In this document: positions 36,547 to 42,958 of the stretch, one piece after another | Layout: every line of letters starts with the position of its first letter | Position numbering within the stretch: position 1 is the stretch's first letter | Source: Microbacterium sp. Marseille-Q6648 | GTDB taxonomy: Bacteria > Actinomycetota > Actinomycetes > Actinomycetales > Microbacteriaceae | Length of the DNA: 64,000 nucleotides | Direction: 5' to 3' | Assembly (NCBI RefSeq): GCF_943181415.1 | Contig: NZ_CALPBZ010000001.1 | Span: 434,001 to 498,000 of the forward strand | Position numbers and translations under genes: made by a program | Notes under the pieces: generated by a model | Told to the model about the DNA's origin: nothing | Seen by the model: only the letters and a program-made list of their open reading frames with translations | The model's database searches: none

Positions 36547-36771
36547 ATGAACACGCTATCGACACCCACCGAGCCCGCCGCCGTCCTCGAGTACCGTCTG
36601 AACGCCGCGGATCGGTGCGACTCCTGCGGCGCACAGGCCTACATCGCCGCCGAGGTCAACGGCAGCGAACTGCTCTTCTGCGCTCATCACGGCCGCAAGT
36701 ACGAAGAAAAGCTGCGTACCATCGCGACTTCCTGGCACGACGAGACGTCTCGCCTGCACGACGCCGACTGA
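36547..36771 (+). CDS. DUF7455 small zinc-finger-like protein
   Basis: The 74-residue protein has a Cys pair CDSCGAQAY (24-32) and a second FCAHHGRKYEEKL, suggesting one zinc site made of three Cys and a His. The family is actinobacterial and of unknown function. AGGAGG nine bases upstream supports the start. It converges with the racemase-like gene. The 174-bp gap 36373-36546 upstream shows no ORF. Confidence 0.85.
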   Translation: MNTLSTPTEPAAVLEYRLNAADRCDSCGAQAYIAAEVNGSELLFCAHHGRKYEEKLRTIATSWHDETSRLHDAD

Positions 36772-36794: not shown

Positions 36795-37844
36795 TCAGGC
36801 GCGTCCTTCGACGTAGCGCCGCGGCAGATCCGGCGACACTCTCGTGACGATCTCCTCGCCGATCGTGTCGATGAGTTCGGCCAGACCGGTCGCTGTGGGC
36901 TCTCCGCGCGTGCCCGGGCCGTAGATCACGACGGTGTCGCCGATGGCGGCGCCCGGCCACGCGGCCACCGCACTCTCGGTGTGGCCCACCCGCAGGAGTG
37001 CCCGCGGACCGGCCGGCGTTCCGACCGATGTGCGGCCCGCAAGTGTCGAGAACAGCCCGTCGAACGCCCCTGTGTCCACCACGACCTCGTCGCGTGCGAT
37101 GGCGGTGACGGTTGCGATAAGACGAGCGATCGGGACAAGCCCCAGGTCGGCGCCCGATGGCCCTCCCGCCGGTGCCACACCGTAGGCGTACGCCCCCACG
37201 CGCACGAGGTCGTAGCGGAAGGCGCGGCGCGCGAAGGATGCCGCACTGGCGGCGAGATGGTGGATGCTCGGCCCGAGCCCGGCCTCGACCGCCTCGCGCC
37301 GAGCGAGATCGAAGACGGCGCGGGCGGCATCGTCGTCGGCGTCGGACGCCTCGGCGATGTGGCTCCAGATGCCGACGACCCGAGCGGTGCCGTCGAGTTC
37401 GAGCTGCCTGGCTTGGCGCACGGCGGCAGGCCAGTCCTCGGGCCGGAAGCCGTTGCGGTGAAGGCCGGTGTCGATCTTGAGGTGAACGCGGGCGGAACGC
37501 TCGGCGCCGACCCGCGCGACGTCCTCCAGGACCTCACGGTCCCCGATCCCGAGATCCAGATGGAGGTCGACGGCCGCTGCGACCTCATCCACGGAGGGAA
37601 ACGTCCACACGAAGATCCGCACCCGACCGCCGACGGCTGCGCGGACGGCGCGGGCGGTCTCGATGTCGTAGGCGCCGATCCATCGGATGCCTGCGGCGAC
37701 GGCGCGTCGCACGAGCGGTACGGCTCCGTGGCCGTAGGCGTCGTCCTTGACGACCAGCATCGGCTCCGCCGGCGACACGCGCGCCTGAACTGCTGCGATG
37801 TTCGCGTCGAAGGCGGCGAGGTCGATCTCGAGGGCGGCGGTCAC
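36795..37844 (-). CDS. Alanine racemase-like protein with intact PLP barrel but degenerate C-terminal domain
   Basis: The 349-residue protein from GTG at 37844 aligns with alanine racemases through the PLP TIM barrel. The PLP Lys is Lys33 in VVKDDAYGHG, the HLKIDTGLHRNGF motif carries the conserved Arg, and YDLVRVGAYAYGV carries the Arg facing the pyridine nitrogen. The C-terminal domain is abnormal: the SYG motif with the second catalytic base (Tyr265 in Geobacillus Alr) is missing, GYADG is replaced by GAFDG, and the MD motif of the active-site entrance is lost. The start overlaps the stop of the next racemase-like gene by four bases (GTGA). On its own it should not be a normal racemase. 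It may act with its neighbour, or be a PLP carrier or amino-acid-binding protein. Confidence 0.85.
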   Translation of the reverse strand: MTAALEIDLAAFDANIAAVQARVSPAEPMLVVKDDAYGHGAVPLVRRAVAAGIRWIGAYDIETARAVRAAVGGRVRIFVWTFPSVDEVAAAVDLHLDLGIGDREVLEDVARVGAERSARVHLKIDTGLHRNGFRPEDWPAAVRQARQLELDGTARVVGIWSHIAEASDADDDAARAVFDLARREAVEAGLGPSIHHLAASAASFARRAFRYDLVRVGAYAYGVAPAGGPSGADLGLVPIARLIATVTAIARDEVVVDTGAFDGLFSTLAGRTSVGTPAGPRALLRVGHTESAVAAWPGAAIGDTVVIYGPGTRGEPTATGLAELIDTIGEEIVTRVSPDLPRRYVEGRA

Positions 37845-38524
37845 GGATCGCTCCTCGGCACGCCCGGTGCGCGGCCGGCGAGTCGGCCGACGGTGGCGAC
37901 GATCTCCGCCGCGCTCGCACCCGTGTGGGCGGCCCACTCCGCGACCGGGGGGTGCCCTTCGGCGGGGTCGCCGAAGTACCAGACCACGTCCCCTCGGCGA
38001 ACGTCGGCGTCACCGATCTCGACGACGCACACATCCATCGCGACACGTCCGAGGACCGGACACCGCGCGTCGCCGATGGTCACCGCTATGCGGCCGCCGA
38101 GGCCCCTGACGACTCCGTCGGCGTAACCGCCCGACACCAGAGCGATGCGGGTGTCCCGTGTCGCTCGATACCGGTATCCGTAGGACACGCCCTCCCCCGC
38201 CTTCAGCTCCTTGCTGCTGATCACCCCGCCGTTCAGGCGCATGACGGGGACTCCCGGGCCGTCGAGACCATAGAGTTGCTCGCCCGGAACCGTCGGCCCG
38301 GCCGAGGTGACGATGCGATCCGCAGGGAAACCCGCGTCGATCACGCTCGCGGCGGCGTGGGGGTCGACCAGAGCCGTCGCCGAGGTCTCGGCGCGCACGG
38401 CTTCGGCCACGACGCGCAGCCCGTGACCCCAGGCGTCCGCCCGCAGATCGAGGACGCTCCCCTGGTCGGATCCGGAGAGATTCGCACGCAGCGCGGCCTG
38501 CGACACGCTGACGCGGACGCTCAT
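37841..38524 (-). CDS. Truncated alanine racemase-like protein with intact C-terminal domain
   Basis: At 227 residues this is much shorter than the usual 360-380. The N-terminal part keeps a barrel remnant, VLDLRADAWGHG, in which the PLP Lys is replaced by Arg28, and most middle strands of the barrel are absent. The C-terminal domain is complete: MRLNGGVISSKELKAGEGVSYGYRYRA with Tyr115 matching the second catalytic base, GGYADG (132-137), and GRVAMDVCVVEIGD with the MD motif (163-164). The frame is open and the ends overlap both neighbours (TGATG upstream, GTGA downstream), which argues against a decaying pseudogene. It supplies exactly the parts missing from the adjacent protein. A heterodimer is inferred. 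Confidence 0.85.
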   Translation of the reverse strand: MSVRVSVSQAALRANLSGSDQGSVLDLRADAWGHGLRVVAEAVRAETSATALVDPHAAASVIDAGFPADRIVTSAGPTVPGEQLYGLDGPGVPVMRLNGGVISSKELKAGEGVSYGYRYRATRDTRIALVSGGYADGVVRGLGGRIAVTIGDARCPVLGRVAMDVCVVEIGDADVRRGDVVWYFGDPAEGHPPVAEWAAHTGASAAEIVATVGRLAGRAPGVPRSDP

Positions 38525-39549
38525 CAGCGGAGGGCGTCTCCCATGACGCGCTCATGGCGCGGGCGCGTGCCCTCACGGATGCCGGTCGCGCTCACGCGCG
38601 TCTCGTAGAGTCCGGGGATCCAGTTGCCTTCGATCAGAACCGGGCCGTCGGGCCCCACCGCCACGTCCCAGCCGATGTACGGAACCTGGGGGATGCGCCG
38701 CGCGGCACGATCGACCAGCGCGATCACCTCGTCCCACAACGGCACCTGGAAGTCCACGATCGACGCGTGCGAATCCGGGTGCTCGAGATAGCGGCTCTTG
38801 TGCTTGCCGGTGTGTCCCGGCCCCACCGAGTGCCCGGCGTCGTCCAGCATCGTGAAGAAGCCGCCCCAGGTGAACTGATCGCTCACCGCGCCGCGGCCGA
38901 ACTTCTGCACCATGACCAGCGGGTGCACCTTCTCACCGTCGAAGTACGTGGTGATACGGGTGGTGTTGACTGTCCCGGCGCAGTAGGACGACAGGTAGGG
39001 GTGCTGAGCGATCGGCTGCTCGACGAGGATCTGGCCCTTCTCGATGAGCTCGCTGCGGAAGGCATCCCAGTCGTCGACCTCGGCCGTGTCGTAACGGAAC
39101 ACGCCCTTCCCCTCGCGACTGACCGGCACCTTCGCGATGATCACGGGATGCCGGCGGGCGAATTCCTGGAGGGCAGCCGCGTCGGCGTCGTCGACCTGCA
39201 TCCACTCGCGGCCGAGGAACTCCCCGAACGCGCGGTTGAAGTTCAGCTTGTCCTCGAGCGTCTTCGCGACCTCGCGGTCGTTGACCGCGGTAGCCAGGTG
39301 ATGCTGCACGAGAGAGGTCATGAAGGTTCGCCGCTCTTTGCGGGTCAGCAGCGCGAAATCCGCTTCGTAGTAGTCGATGTAGGCGGTGTCGCGGAAGGCG
39401 GCGGACCACAGCATGTCGACGAAGACCGGCACCGCCCACTTGCCCGTCTCGTCCGAGATCTGGCGGGCGAAACCCCACACCCGGGCGGGACGGAAGGCCG
39501 TGGCGCGCTTCAGGAAATAGCCGGCGCGCGCTTTCAGAGAGATGCCCAT
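38524..39549 (-). CDS. Sugar-transfer-associated ATP-grasp protein, first copy
   Basis: The 341-residue protein belongs to the ATP-grasp superfamily, closest by pattern to the sugar-transfer-associated group. ATG at 39549 (MGISLKARAGYFLKR) follows a TATAAT box nine bases upstream. The nucleotide-binding segments are HPVIIAKVPVSREGKGVFRY near 130-150 and ILVEQPIAQHP; GTVNTTRITTYF is the family's conserved Asn strand; the metal ligands are in GWDVAVGPDGPVLIEGN near 300. ATP-grasp enzymes form acyl-phosphate intermediates to make amide or ester bonds. The gene leads a three-gene operon with the two racemase-like genes, which suggests it uses an amino-acid product. The substrate is unknown. Confidence 0.85.
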   Translation of the reverse strand: MGISLKARAGYFLKRATAFRPARVWGFARQISDETGKWAVPVFVDMLWSAAFRDTAYIDYYEADFALLTRKERRTFMTSLVQHHLATAVNDREVAKTLEDKLNFNRAFGEFLGREWMQVDDADAAALQEFARRHPVIIAKVPVSREGKGVFRYDTAEVDDWDAFRSELIEKGQILVEQPIAQHPYLSSYCAGTVNTTRITTYFDGEKVHPLVMVQKFGRGAVSDQFTWGGFFTMLDDAGHSVGPGHTGKHKSRYLEHPDSHASIVDFQVPLWDEVIALVDRAARRIPQVPYIGWDVAVGPDGPVLIEGNWIPGLYETRVSATGIREGTRPRHERVMGDALR

Positions 39550-39627: not shown

Positions 39628-40659
39628 GTGTCACAGAGCTCCCTGCGCGTGCGCTACCTGCTGCAGCGGGCCCGGCGGCTGAAGCCGTCGAACGTGACGG
39701 AGTTCGCCCGCCAGGTCAAGAAGGTGTCCAAGGCACCTCTCCCGGTGATCGTGGCCGACATGCTCTGGTGTTCGGTGCGATACGAAATGGGCTTCCGGGA
39801 CTACGCGGTGTGGGACATCCGCCTGCTGAACGGGCGCGAGCGCCGTACGTGGATGACGCATCCCAAGGCCATCCGCCTCAACAACACCCTGAACGGCCCC
39901 GATTCCGCGGCACTACTCGGCGACAAACCCAAGTTCTACCGCGATTTCGCGGACATGATCGGGCGGGACTGGCTGGATGTGGCCGACGCCGACGACGATC
40001 AGATCACCGCCTTCCTCGCACGGCACCCGCGCGTCCTCGTCAAACCGGCGCGGGGCGAAGGCGGCCGTGGGATCACGACCTTCGAGGCGGCCGACATCTC
40101 CGACCCGGCCGCATGGCGGGAACTTCTCGTCTCGGAGGACCGGACGCTCGTCGAAGAGCTTCTGCCCCAGCACGAGCGCATGTCGCAGCTGTACGCCGGG
40201 AGCGTGAACACCCTGCGCATCATCACCTACCGCGCGCCCGACGAGCGGTTCCACGTCATCGCCTCGGTGCTGCGCATCGGCAACGGCGGTGTGGTCGACA
40301 ACTTCGCCGGCGGCGGCATGTTCACCATGCTCGACGACCGCGGAGTGGCACGCTGGGCGGGGGTCGACAAGAACTCGAACGTCTTCCCCCGGCATCCTGT
40401 CACCGACGTGCCCATCGCGGGGTTCGAGGTGCCCCTGTTCGCCGAGGCTCTGGCGATGGTCGAGGCGGCGTCGCGACGCCTGCCCACCGTCCCCTACGTC
40501 GGATGGGATGTGGCCATCACCCCCACCGGCCCCGCGCTCATCGAGGCGAATCACAACTCGAGCGTCTTCCAGATGAAGCCGAGCGTGTCGGGTGTGCGCA
40601 CCGGGCTGCTCGCGCGCTACCGGGACGCCGTCGGCTCGGGAGTGCTCGACCGTCGCTAA
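39628..40659 (+). CDS. Sugar-transfer-associated ATP-grasp protein, second copy
   Basis: The 343-residue paralogue of the divergent neighbour shares the same N-terminal helical region (VRYLLQRARRLKPSNVTEFARQVKK), the ATP-site strand HPRVLVKPARGEGGRGITTFE, VEELLPQHERMSQLYAGSVNTLRIITY, and metal ligands in GWDVAITPTGPALIEANHN. Both copies keep the catalytic residues, so they probably add two different units rather than being redundant. GTG at 39628 is set by the TAGCGT box six bases upstream. Its stop overlaps the stop of the convergent MurJ-like gene by four bases. Confidence 0.85.
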   Translation: MSQSSLRVRYLLQRARRLKPSNVTEFARQVKKVSKAPLPVIVADMLWCSVRYEMGFRDYAVWDIRLLNGRERRTWMTHPKAIRLNNTLNGPDSAALLGDKPKFYRDFADMIGRDWLDVADADDDQITAFLARHPRVLVKPARGEGGRGITTFEAADISDPAAWRELLVSEDRTLVEELLPQHERMSQLYAGSVNTLRIITYRAPDERFHVIASVLRIGNGGVVDNFAGGGMFTMLDDRGVARWAGVDKNSNVFPRHPVTDVPIAGFEVPLFAEALAMVEAASRRLPTVPYVGWDVAITPTGPALIEANHNSSVFQMKPSVSGVRTGLLARYRDAVGSGVLDRR

Positions 40660-42245
40660 CGCGACAGCTTGGCGCGCACGAGCGCGACCGCCGACGACAG
40701 CTCCGGCGTGCGCACCACCGCCAGCAGGGCGAGATAGACGGCACCGCTGGCCGCGCAGATGAGGAACGTGCCCAGGGCGCCGAACAGCTTGTCCTGCAGC
40801 ATCCACCCCTCGGGCCCACCGGCCCACAGATACACGCCGTAGCCGACGACGCCGCTGGGGATCGCGGCCATGGTGAACCGGACCAGGCCGAGCAGCGGCC
40901 CGCGCAGCCCCAGCGGCCCGATCTTGCGGCGCAGCAGCCAGACCGCCAGCATCAGCTCGATCACGCCGCACAGCGTCTGCGCCGCCGCCACCGCCGCGGT
41001 GAGGTACTCCCGCGGCACCAGGGCCGCGACCAGCGTCAGCGCGACGACGAGAACGCCCTGGACGAGGGTGAACCAGAACGGCGTCCGGGTGTCGCCGTAC
41101 GCATAGAACGTGCGCTGCACGATGAACAGGACCGCCATAGGCGTCAGCGACAGCAGGAACGCCACGAGAACCGGGGCGGCGAGCTCGGCATCCGACGCCT
41201 GGTTCGTGAAGATGCGTGAAGCCGGTGCGGCAGCCGCGATGAGCGCCGCAGCCGCGATCACCACGAACAGCCCCAGCGTGCGGATCGCGGCGCCGATGTC
41301 GTCGCGCACCTCGCGGTGGCGTGCCGCCGCGGCGTGCTCGGCGATGCGGGTGAAGTACGGGGTGCCGATGGAGAGGACGATCAGCGCGTACGGCACCATG
41401 TACACCAGCCACGCGTTCTGCCAGACCGCGACGGAGGCGTTGTCACCCGAGGCCACCGCGATCGTGCGCTGCTGCACGATGCCTGCGCCGAGGGTCACCA
41501 GGACCATTCCGAACGTCCAGGTGGCGAGGCCGCCCATGTCGCCGAATCCGGCGCCGCGCCAGCGGAAGTCGGGCCGCAGCGGAATACCCGACCGGCGCCA
41601 GGCGATCGTCAGCACGACCGTCTGGGCCACGATTCCCAGCGTGGCCGTTCCGCCCACGAGGGCGATCATCTCGGGCCCCCACCCGTCGAGCTGATTGCGG
41701 TCACTGCCGTAGATGGCGATGAAGGCCGCGAACCCCGCGATCGAGACGAGGTTGTTCACGACCGGGGCCCACGCGTACGGCGTGAACATCCGGCGTGCGT
41801 TGAGGCTCTCGCCCATGAGGGCGAACATGCCGTAGAAGAAGATCTGCGGCAGACACCAGTAGGCGAAGGCGGTGGCCAGCGCCCGCTGCGCTTCGCTGAA
41901 GGTCCCGGCGAAGACCCAGATCAGCGCCGGGGCGAGAAGCATCGACACCGCCGTCGCGGTCAGGAGGATCGTCGCGCCCACGGTCAGCAGTTTCGGCAGG
42001 AAGGCACGGCCTTCGTCCGCCTGAGCGCTGACGGCCACGACGCGGGGCACGATGACACCGGTGAGCAGACCCGTGGAGATGAGGGTCAGGACCGTGTTCG
42101 GTAGCTGGTTGGCGACGCCGAAAGCGTCGCTGGCCGCTCCGATCGCACCGATCGCACTGACCAGCACGATGGTGCGCACGAGCCCCGTGAGCCGCGACAC
42201 CAGGGTGCCGGCGGCGATGAGGCTGCTCGCGCGCGCGAGATTCAT
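40656..42245 (-). CDS. murJ: MurJ/MviN-family lipid flippase
   Basis: MOP-superfamily membrane protein of 529 residues with about 14 hydrophobic segments. The N-terminal MurJ signature ASSLIAAGTLVSRLTGLVRTIVLVSAIG is clear, followed by NQLPNTVLTLISTGLLTGVIVPRVV and the TFYAYGDTRTPFW loop. MurJ flips lipid II; many actinobacteria carry their main MurJ at another locus near the origin, often fused to a kinase-like domain. This compact copy beside ATP-grasp and CofE-like genes may serve a different lipid-linked product. It follows the CofE-like gene by 14 bp on the same strand. Confidence 0.88.
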   Translation of the reverse strand: MNLARASSLIAAGTLVSRLTGLVRTIVLVSAIGAIGAASDAFGVANQLPNTVLTLISTGLLTGVIVPRVVAVSAQADEGRAFLPKLLTVGATILLTATAVSMLLAPALIWVFAGTFSEAQRALATAFAYWCLPQIFFYGMFALMGESLNARRMFTPYAWAPVVNNLVSIAGFAAFIAIYGSDRNQLDGWGPEMIALVGGTATLGIVAQTVVLTIAWRRSGIPLRPDFRWRGAGFGDMGGLATWTFGMVLVTLGAGIVQQRTIAVASGDNASVAVWQNAWLVYMVPYALIVLSIGTPYFTRIAEHAAAARHREVRDDIGAAIRTLGLFVVIAAAALIAAAAPASRIFTNQASDAELAAPVLVAFLLSLTPMAVLFIVQRTFYAYGDTRTPFWFTLVQGVLVVALTLVAALVPREYLTAAVAAAQTLCGVIELMLAVWLLRRKIGPLGLRGPLLGLVRFTMAAIPSGVVGYGVYLWAGGPEGWMLQDKLFGALGTFLICAASGAVYLALLAVVRTPELSSAVALVRAKLSR

Positions 42246-42259
42246 CAGGGGGCGACCGC

Positions 42260-42958
42260 TCAGGCGGCGCGGATGATGCCGAGCGGCGTGGACTCGTGGC
42301 CCTGCCCCAGAGGGTTGTCCTTCAGGATCGTCACCAGCCGCTTCTCCGTTGCACGGTCCACCGTCGACCCCAGGATGTTCCCACCGAGGTCGTTGATGTC
42401 GACCACCGCGACCTCGGCGGCGCCGCCCAGCAGCGCCTTGAGGTGCTTCGCGACCTCGTCGGGTCGCTCCGGACCCAGCACGACGGCCTTGTTGTAGGGA
42501 GGGATCGTACCGCTGGTCGGGCCGTCGATCGCGCGGGCTTTGTCGCCGGCGATGCGATAGAAGTCGCCCTTGCGGCCGAAGGCCTTCGTGACGGCCGACA
42601 CCGCAGCGGCCAGGAGGATGCGCGGGGTGCCGCACTCGCGCAGCGCCATCTCCATCGTCTCCGGCATGCCGAGACCGATGCCGTACGGCGTGCGCGTGAC
42701 GTACTTCGAGAGGAAGAGCGCCAGCCGGCGCGGCGTGATCTCCTCCACGAGGTACGAGCGCCCCTGCGTGATGGCCACGATCTTCTCGGTCACGAAGAGC
42801 AGATCCCCGGGCCGCAGGCTGTCGCCGACGTACTCGCGGATGAACGCGTCCAGATCGTCCCCTGGCAGCACCACGCGGGTGCGGATCGGGATCCGCGAGT
42901 ACGAGGTGCCGTCGACCTCGACCGTGAGCGCCTTGCCGGCGTTTGCTTCGGCGCTCAC
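42260..42958 (-). CDS. CofE-like protein (F420-0:L-glutamate ligase fold)
   Basis: The 232-residue protein resembles the CofE/FbiB N-terminal family: [38 protein letters not shown], and a later [35 protein letters not shown] followed by [15 protein letters not shown]. CofE adds L-glutamate to F420-0 through a gamma bond with GTP. No fbiA, fbiC, cofC or other F420 gene is in the window, and the motifs are divergent, so another acceptor is likely. Its GTG overlaps the sigA stop by four bases, and it leads into the MurJ-like gene. The function is inferred. Confidence 0.78.

Follow-up and report, generated by a model that had tools for sequence, protein, structure and literature searches.

The 64,000-nucleotide stretch of the Microbacterium sp. 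Marseille-Q6648 genome analysed here (contig NZ_CALPBZ010000001.1, positions 434,001 to 498,000; hereafter the window) carries two overlapping genes, AlrS and AlrL, whose products very probably assemble into an obligate heterodimeric enzyme of the alanine-racemase type with one live active site. Both genes lie on the minus strand. AlrS (38524-37841, 227 residues) joins a remnant of the first three barrel units to a complete alanine-racemase C-terminal domain, and AlrL (37844-36795, 349 residues from a GTG start) has a complete pyridoxal phosphate (PLP) barrel followed by a partial C-terminal domain. The stop codon of AlrS and the start codon of AlrL share the four bases GTGA (37841..37844), as described in an earlier, sequence-only reading of the stretch, which had reported two overlapping racemase-like frames at 36795-38524 and had conjectured a heterodimer from their complementary losses.

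The known alanine racemase is a homodimer with two active sites, each formed by the N-domain of one monomer and the C-domain of the other (as set out in the accessible part of PMC3245724). We envisage an ancestor with tandem copies of such a homodimeric enzyme, in which the barrel of each chain would have supplied the lysine of one site and its C-domain the tyrosine of the partner's site. In the present pair the barrel side, with Lys33 and the PLP pocket, would come from AlrL and the lid, with Tyr115 and a Met-Asp loop, from AlrS, so that each heterodimer would have a single complete site. The opposite site, composed of the AlrS barrel and the AlrL C-domain, would be dead, the AlrS barrel having shrunk to a third of its size or to nothing. 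We infer the dimerisation, the single live site and the racemisation, most likely of alanine, from sequence comparisons across the family.

Partition of the catalytic residues

Profile searches with the two window proteins recover different parts of the enzyme. In Pfam, AlrL matches the whole barrel (PF01168, 169.3 bits, E 1.3e-49) together with a C-terminal tail (PF00842, 25.5 bits) that is without the tyrosine hairpin and the Met-Asp motif. AlrS matches the C-terminal domain alone (PF00842, 112.8 bits, E 1.1e-32) and has a barrel remnant, in agreement with the earlier description of the upstream protein as little barrel and a full C-terminal domain. Both proteins score below the 168-bit alanine-racemase cut-off of TIGR00492 (AlrL 122.4 bits, AlrS 100.5 bits). 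The same genome has an intact alr elsewhere (C3:362534-363187), which reaches 280 bits against that cut-off and whose product has the lysine, Ser-Tyr-Gly, GYADG and Met-Asp. The three residues central to the sequence-only reading are encoded where it had placed them, all on the minus strand: Lys33, the PLP lysine of AlrL (Lys39 in reference enzymes), at 37748-37746; Tyr115, the trans catalytic tyrosine of AlrS (Tyr265'), at 38182-38180; and Arg28, which stands at the place of the PLP lysine in AlrS, at 38443-38441.

The partition was scored in 72 AlrL and 71 AlrS sequences, with residue numbering (K39 and so on) based in part on the accessible part of PMC3245724. Locus L095 has no S owing to a contig end, two loci cut by contig ends (L140, L141) stand outside the 72, and L061 (Kushneria), an ordinary Alr, was left out. 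Three loci repeat others (L150 is L008, L144 is the window and L124 is L024). The lysine position of AlrS was located by motif score, and the trees and the table of AlrS trans residues (36 rows) took 28 of the split pairs.

K39, K129, R136, H166, H200 and R219 are retained in every AlrL, both split (72 of 72) and fused (six of six, 78/78 in all), and in the same 78 proteins the Tyr265 position is without a tyrosine. The tyrosine hairpin is deleted in 71 of the 72 split AlrL, leaving a gap; in the remaining one, L135 (7458-8615), the hairpin is present with a glycine at the tyrosine position, making this protein a possible intermediate. The Met312 and Arg290 positions have drifted in the 72 split rows. 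For AlrS, the catalytic tyrosine is retained in all 71 sequences and the PLP lysine in none: arginine takes its place in 42 and nine other kinds of residue in 24, and the motif or region is gone in five. Ser114, Tyr115, Gly133, Gly137, Gly159, Arg160, Ala162, Met163 and Gly185 are invariant in an alignment of 42 AlrS. The residues primed as trans in the accessible part of PMC3245724 are Tyr265, Tyr284, Arg290 and Met312, and across the 36 tabulated rows AlrS keeps Tyr265 and Met312 in 36, Arg290 in 35 and Tyr284 as Tyr in 34 and Phe in two.

Neither AlrL, which has the lysine only, nor AlrS, which has the tyrosine only, unites the two in one chain; both are present across the pair, and in a single chain in the fusions. 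With cis residues in AlrL and trans residues in AlrS, the pair appears largely to follow the known architecture. The statements of the sequence-only reading that AlrL keeps the PLP lysine and has lost the Ser-Tyr-Gly tyrosine and the Met-Asp motif, and that AlrS has arginine for the lysine and keeps its tyrosine, are borne out well beyond the window. The division of residues expected from its conjecture has no exception at the lysine, at the tyrosine or at five other cis positions, although some entryway residues depart from it (Arg309, and Tyr43 in one row).

In ten close pairs the ratio of nonsynonymous to synonymous substitution rates (dN/dS) is 0.16-0.31 for AlrS and 0.11-0.21 for AlrL, with AlrS higher in nine of the ten. 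Because the same partition recurs in 72 AlrL and 71 AlrS, and given these ratios, we do not regard AlrS and AlrL as products of chance or decay. The GTGA overlap is similarly widespread: with start codons picked from the alignment, the two genes overlap in 68 of 71 pairs and by exactly four bases in 58 of them. Furthermore, in a comparison of 60 genomes the distances of AlrL track those of AlrS more closely than the topoisomerase-B gene accounts for (partial r 0.62, permutation p 0.0005).

The AlrS barrel itself varies greatly in length. The span separating the lysine site and the tyrosine motif, 226 residues in the intact Alr of the window genome, is near full length in L007, L015, L017 and L026 (202-227 residues), 161-165 residues in L023, L032 and L091, and 63-116 in the window and most other loci, and the AlrS of L018, L019, L021, L024 and L028 is without a recognisable lysine motif.

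Co-occurrence, fusion and origins

The family sample comprised 150 Microbacteriaceae genomes from 85 genera, searched with the window AlrL. Split pairs are present in 46 of these genomes (41 from the first profile pass, together with G012, G015, G037, G038 and G112), three of them cut by contig ends (in S in G124, in L in G012 and G112). A fused form occurs in six genomes, one of which, G073, has a split pair in addition. Either form is thus found in 51 of the 150 genomes and 30 of the 85 genera, with split pairs in 28 genera. No verified lone L or S partner was found in the 150-genome sample, the incomplete cases (G012, G112, G124) being contig ends. Both genes are likewise present in all of loci L006-L034, 29 besides the window's own. 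A scan of named genomes with AlrS returned 27 loci, 26 of them pairs (25 labelled Microbacterium, including two metagenome-assembled genomes, and one from an Actinomycetota metagenome-assembled genome) and the 27th, from Kushneria, an ordinary Alr.

An order-wide search with the window AlrL (396 genomes of the order, 109 genera, E up to 1e-42) gave 13 further loci, one a repeat, with both genes in all 13; in the window's genus 14 genomes match and four are listed without a match. Matches were also obtained in 29 genomes of other families. No pair was found at the seven loci inspected outside the family (L160, L161, L166, L167, L168, L170 and L173), each of which is one full-length match with the tyrosine readable in all but L170, although divergent pairs could escape such a search. 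The expectation set beforehand, that the two genes would travel together across genomes, has therefore held: both are present wherever the contig allows, and neither is routinely absent.

In three genera L and S are joined in one open frame with L first, namely g21 (G020, G100), g74 (G073, G136) and g50 (G049, G119). In all six fused loci (L126, L131, L132, L133, L138 and L139) the L part carries the lysine and the S part the tyrosine, and Pfam recognises a single barrel plus two stretches of C-domain in each. The g50 fusions additionally carry TsaE behind, in the same frame (L133 7073-9052, L138 6191-8080). The predicted structure of the natural fusion L131 has a mean predicted local distance difference test score (pLDDT) of 87.4 and a predicted template modelling score (pTM) of 0.79, falling below pLDDT 50 along the linker (371-388), within one loop (312-320) and at the end of the chain. 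A pTM of 0.79 despite the disordered linker favours joined halves, as we would judge a lower value to be expected of independent ones, but this is suggestive only. The window AlrS modelled alone (pLDDT 91.3, pTM 0.87) is predicted to fold well, as three strand-helix barrel units and the C-terminal domain.

Eight genomes may depend on the split or fused form. An intact alanine racemase was not found with Pfam profiles in G077 and G140, both of genus g78, nor by single-sequence search in G015, G020, G049, G100, G119 and G136. The sole pair of G015, in a locus of 45.8% G+C, has the topoisomerase-B gene on one side and the sigma-factor gene on the other, as the window pair does. PF07478, the D-Ala-D-Ala ligase model, is strong in all ten genomes tested, these eight included (best 165.6-228.6 bits), and none of the ten passes the D-amino-acid transaminase cut-off. 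Alanine is the best candidate substrate for the class, given the genomes in which no alanine racemase other than a split or fused one was detected.

In genus g78 (G077, G140) a split pair also occupies a second locus, where L precedes S. The genus (L118, L125) thus has two split pairs whose gene orders are the reverse of each other, and an intact alanine racemase was not detected in it.

Trees of the two parts bear on how this arrangement arose. In the barrel tree, a quick tree of 72 rows with groups named after the first tree was seen, AlrL from the rpoD-side locus (the window type) clusters with the second member of the intact tandem alr pairs, canonical-locus and fused L with the first. One origin of all L-type barrels is rejected (p-AU 0.00027 in the approximately unbiased test; 35 L-type rows, with L134 omitted as a long branch). 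Single origins of rpoD-side L (0.161), of fused and canonical-locus rows together (0.879) and of fused rows (0.862) are not rejected; in the last two tests the constrained tree beat the free tree, the quick search having missed it. The comparison indicates at least two origins of the L-type partners.

The C-domain tree, also a quick tree and built on few columns (128), rejects neither one origin of all S (0.413) nor one of split S (0.357). In it S from the g78 canonical locus joins the second copy (96), split rpoD-side S stands weakly on the first-copy side (89), and fused S fall among rpoD-side split S (86). Given this last placement, mirror-image decay is indicated for g78 only and not for the fused forms. 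We lean, with no great confidence, towards a scenario in which mirror-image decay of the same tandem pair gave rise to an obligate heteromer two or more times within one family; elsewhere its parts would have been fused, and in some species it would be the sole alanine racemase. At the rpoD-side locus the first copy would have lost its lysine and the second its tyrosine; at the g78 canonical locus the first copy would have lost its tyrosine and the second its lysine.

Alternative explanations, gene neighbourhood and substrate

The residue partition, the constant co-occurrence of the two genes, the L-S fusions in three genera, the genomes in which the split or fused form is the sole detected enzyme and the two or more barrel origins all argue for the heterodimer that was originally conjectured from the window. 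Nonetheless, several observations weigh against it. Arg309, unprimed in the accessible part of PMC3245724, is kept in 35 of 36 AlrS and in only six of 72 split AlrL, and Tyr43 is lost in one AlrL. The GYADG motif, reported as lost from AlrL, is indeed gone from most rows, but its tyrosine, Tyr284, still aligns as Tyr in 15 of 72. The absence of an intact racemase from the six genomes other than G077 and G140 rests on a single-sequence search (E 1e-15 or 1e-12). PF07478 matches 14 of 14 control genomes too, so that only high scores indicate a true ligase, and weak, sub-cut-off matches to the transaminase model are present in nine of the ten genomes. Finally, an intact alr, recognised by adjacent full N and C domains, is present in the window genome and in 38 others of the 41 pair genomes, G077 and G140 being without one. 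In genomes that also have an intact alr, the pair may therefore be dispensable or serve another substrate.

The surroundings of the pair are relevant to the second of these options. Across genera the gene order, in broad outline and with rearrangements, is sigma factor, F420_ligase-like gene, in some cases an ATP-grasp gene, AlrS, AlrL, DUF7455, topoisomerase B and topoisomerase A, with AlrS the first of the pair at the rpoD-side locus. The topoisomerase genes of the window (type II subunits B and A) pass general gyrase/topoisomerase models and not the parE/parC cut-offs. The DUF7455 protein, the usual neighbour on the topoisomerase side, is encoded at 36547..36771 on the plus strand (PF24254, E 1.1e-23). 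On the other side the window has two ATPgrasp_ST proteins. AG1 (38524..39540, minus strand; PF14397, E 1.7e-36; start codon uncertain, with the frame reaching 39597) ends on the first base of AlrS, a 1-base overlap, and the three genes AG1, AlrS and AlrL thus seem to form a single coupled operon. AG2 (39628..40659, plus strand; PF14397, E 1e-42) is divergent. The genome's only MurJ match follows two genes past AlrS (window 40656-42260), and the F420_ligase-like, or 'CofE-like', gene lies at window 42260-42958 (PF01996, 42.4 bits).

In L062 and L083 AG2 and MurJ take the positions that they have in the window, and neither was found in the other contexts compared. ATPgrasp_ST (AG1) is found at the pair in 25 of the 26 loci L035-L060 and in 11 of the 46 pair genomes of the family sample. 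A tight tie between the pair and ATP-grasp was considered and rejected: PF14397 is over cut-off in 31 of 150 genomes with only 11 of these at the pair, and the association is thus facultative outside L035-L060. At eight loci (L064, L065, L067, L068 and L070-L073) a stretch of at least 2 kb between the sigma factor and AlrS has no F420_ligase-like or ATP-grasp match.

The alternative that survives best, possible but clearly less likely than alanine, is compatible with the heterodimer and concerns its product: in Microbacterium the enzyme could be real and make another D-amino acid for the B-type wall, for example D-ornithine, which the ATP-grasp neighbours would attach. The wall diamino acid varies by species in Microbacterium (PMC10757982, accessible part). 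The Ile222 position is alanine in 43 of 72 AlrL, the window genome has an intact alr as well, and its only MurJ match stands close to the pair; in G015, however, no alanine racemase was detected apart from a locus of this type. Similarly, the ATP-grasp gene that adjoins the pair so regularly at L035-L060 is there in just 11 of 46 sample genomes. Seven named pair-bearing species fall in one clade of PMC10757982 (accessible part), a count to be read with the fact that the scan reached close relatives only. For the window pair, whose genome also has an intact alr, a second D-amino acid such as D-ornithine may be the product. The broader lead that the pair is a general source of D-diamino acids was dropped: D-2,4-diaminobutyric acid is found in the wall of Rhodoluna lacicola (PMC4156110, accessible part), and G010 has one intact Alr match and no pair.

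It is improbable that AlrS is instead a regulatory or stabilising partner of intact Alr, with AlrL working on its own as a PLP protein that can do without a trans tyrosine. An intact Alr is indeed present in the window genome and most pair genomes, and YggS/PROSC-like PLP barrels work without a C-domain. However, eight genomes with the split or fused form have no detected intact alr, and three genera have L and S in a fused form. Furthermore, AlrL retains a C-domain tail and all six cis residues taken as defining, and the trans tyrosine and methionine of AlrS do not vary.

Less probable still is an AlrL that is active alone as a homodimer, with some substitute for the tyrosine, beside an AlrS that is a fading pseudogene. 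AlrL does have every scored defining barrel residue, and AlrS is the shorter protein with the higher dN/dS in nine of ten pairs; yet AlrS is missing only where a contig ends, and it is found at dN/dS of 0.16-0.31, with its tyrosine in 71 of 71 sequences and the overlap in 68 of 71 pairs, and the S part is retained within the fused proteins. Errors of assembly or sequencing, or a single gene broken by a frameshift, can be dismissed, for although adjacent Alr pieces can mimic a broken gene, and G009 does look broken, pairs of the split type are found again and again, in 28 of the 85 genera sampled, and the pair is not one frameshifted gene because at the rpoD-side locus the C-domain gene is upstream of the barrel gene and each piece carries the other domain's remnant.

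Significance and comparison with known systems

Alanine racemase is a cell-wall enzyme, a textbook homodimer and an antibiotic target. We found no report of a split or heterodimeric alanine racemase in the open-access literature, judged by titles and abstract openings, with subscription journals mostly outside this search. AlrS/AlrL is a variant form of a known enzyme, widespread in its family, and not a new enzyme family. If the heterodimer is real, it provides a clean natural case of reciprocal loss by which a homodimer becomes an obligate heterodimer, with living stages that would include intact tandem copies, AlrS with a near-full but lysine-less barrel, AlrS without a barrel, and fusions. 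It would also matter for annotation, as a genome with only alr fragments probably does have an alanine racemase. More generally, an enzyme with one live site beside a vanished one would make the interdependence of the two sites of the classical dimer directly testable.

The pair shares with Alr (PLP fold type III; PF01168 and PF00842) the PLP lysine motif and K129, R136, H166, H200 and R219 in AlrL, and the trans tyrosine and Met-Asp loop in AlrS. It differs in consisting of two incomplete chains, each under the TIGR00492 cut-off. Intact tandem alr1-alr2 loci from several other genera of the sample (L098, L099, L105-L112 and L115; also L137) resemble it in having adjacent Alr genes in the same direction, and their alr2 barrels group with split AlrL. 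Unlike the split pair, both tandem copies keep the lysine and the tyrosine (11 loci scored), and the four loci checked for neighbours (L098, L099, L105 and L137) have no sigma-factor or topoisomerase gene beside them.

Two heteromeric systems of other chemistry offer further parallels. In the trypanosomatid pairs of enzyme and prozyme (S-adenosylmethionine decarboxylase, AdoMetDC, and deoxyhypusine synthase), a paralogue that has lost catalytic residues activates the other. AlrS and AlrL, in contrast, have both lost residues, in a complementary manner, and are encoded by overlapping bacterial genes. In the heterodimeric beta-galactosidase LacLM, overlapping genes encode the two parts of one heterodimeric enzyme (accessible part of PMC4358714), the arrangement that we predict for AlrS and AlrL, although the fold and chemistry of the two systems are unrelated.

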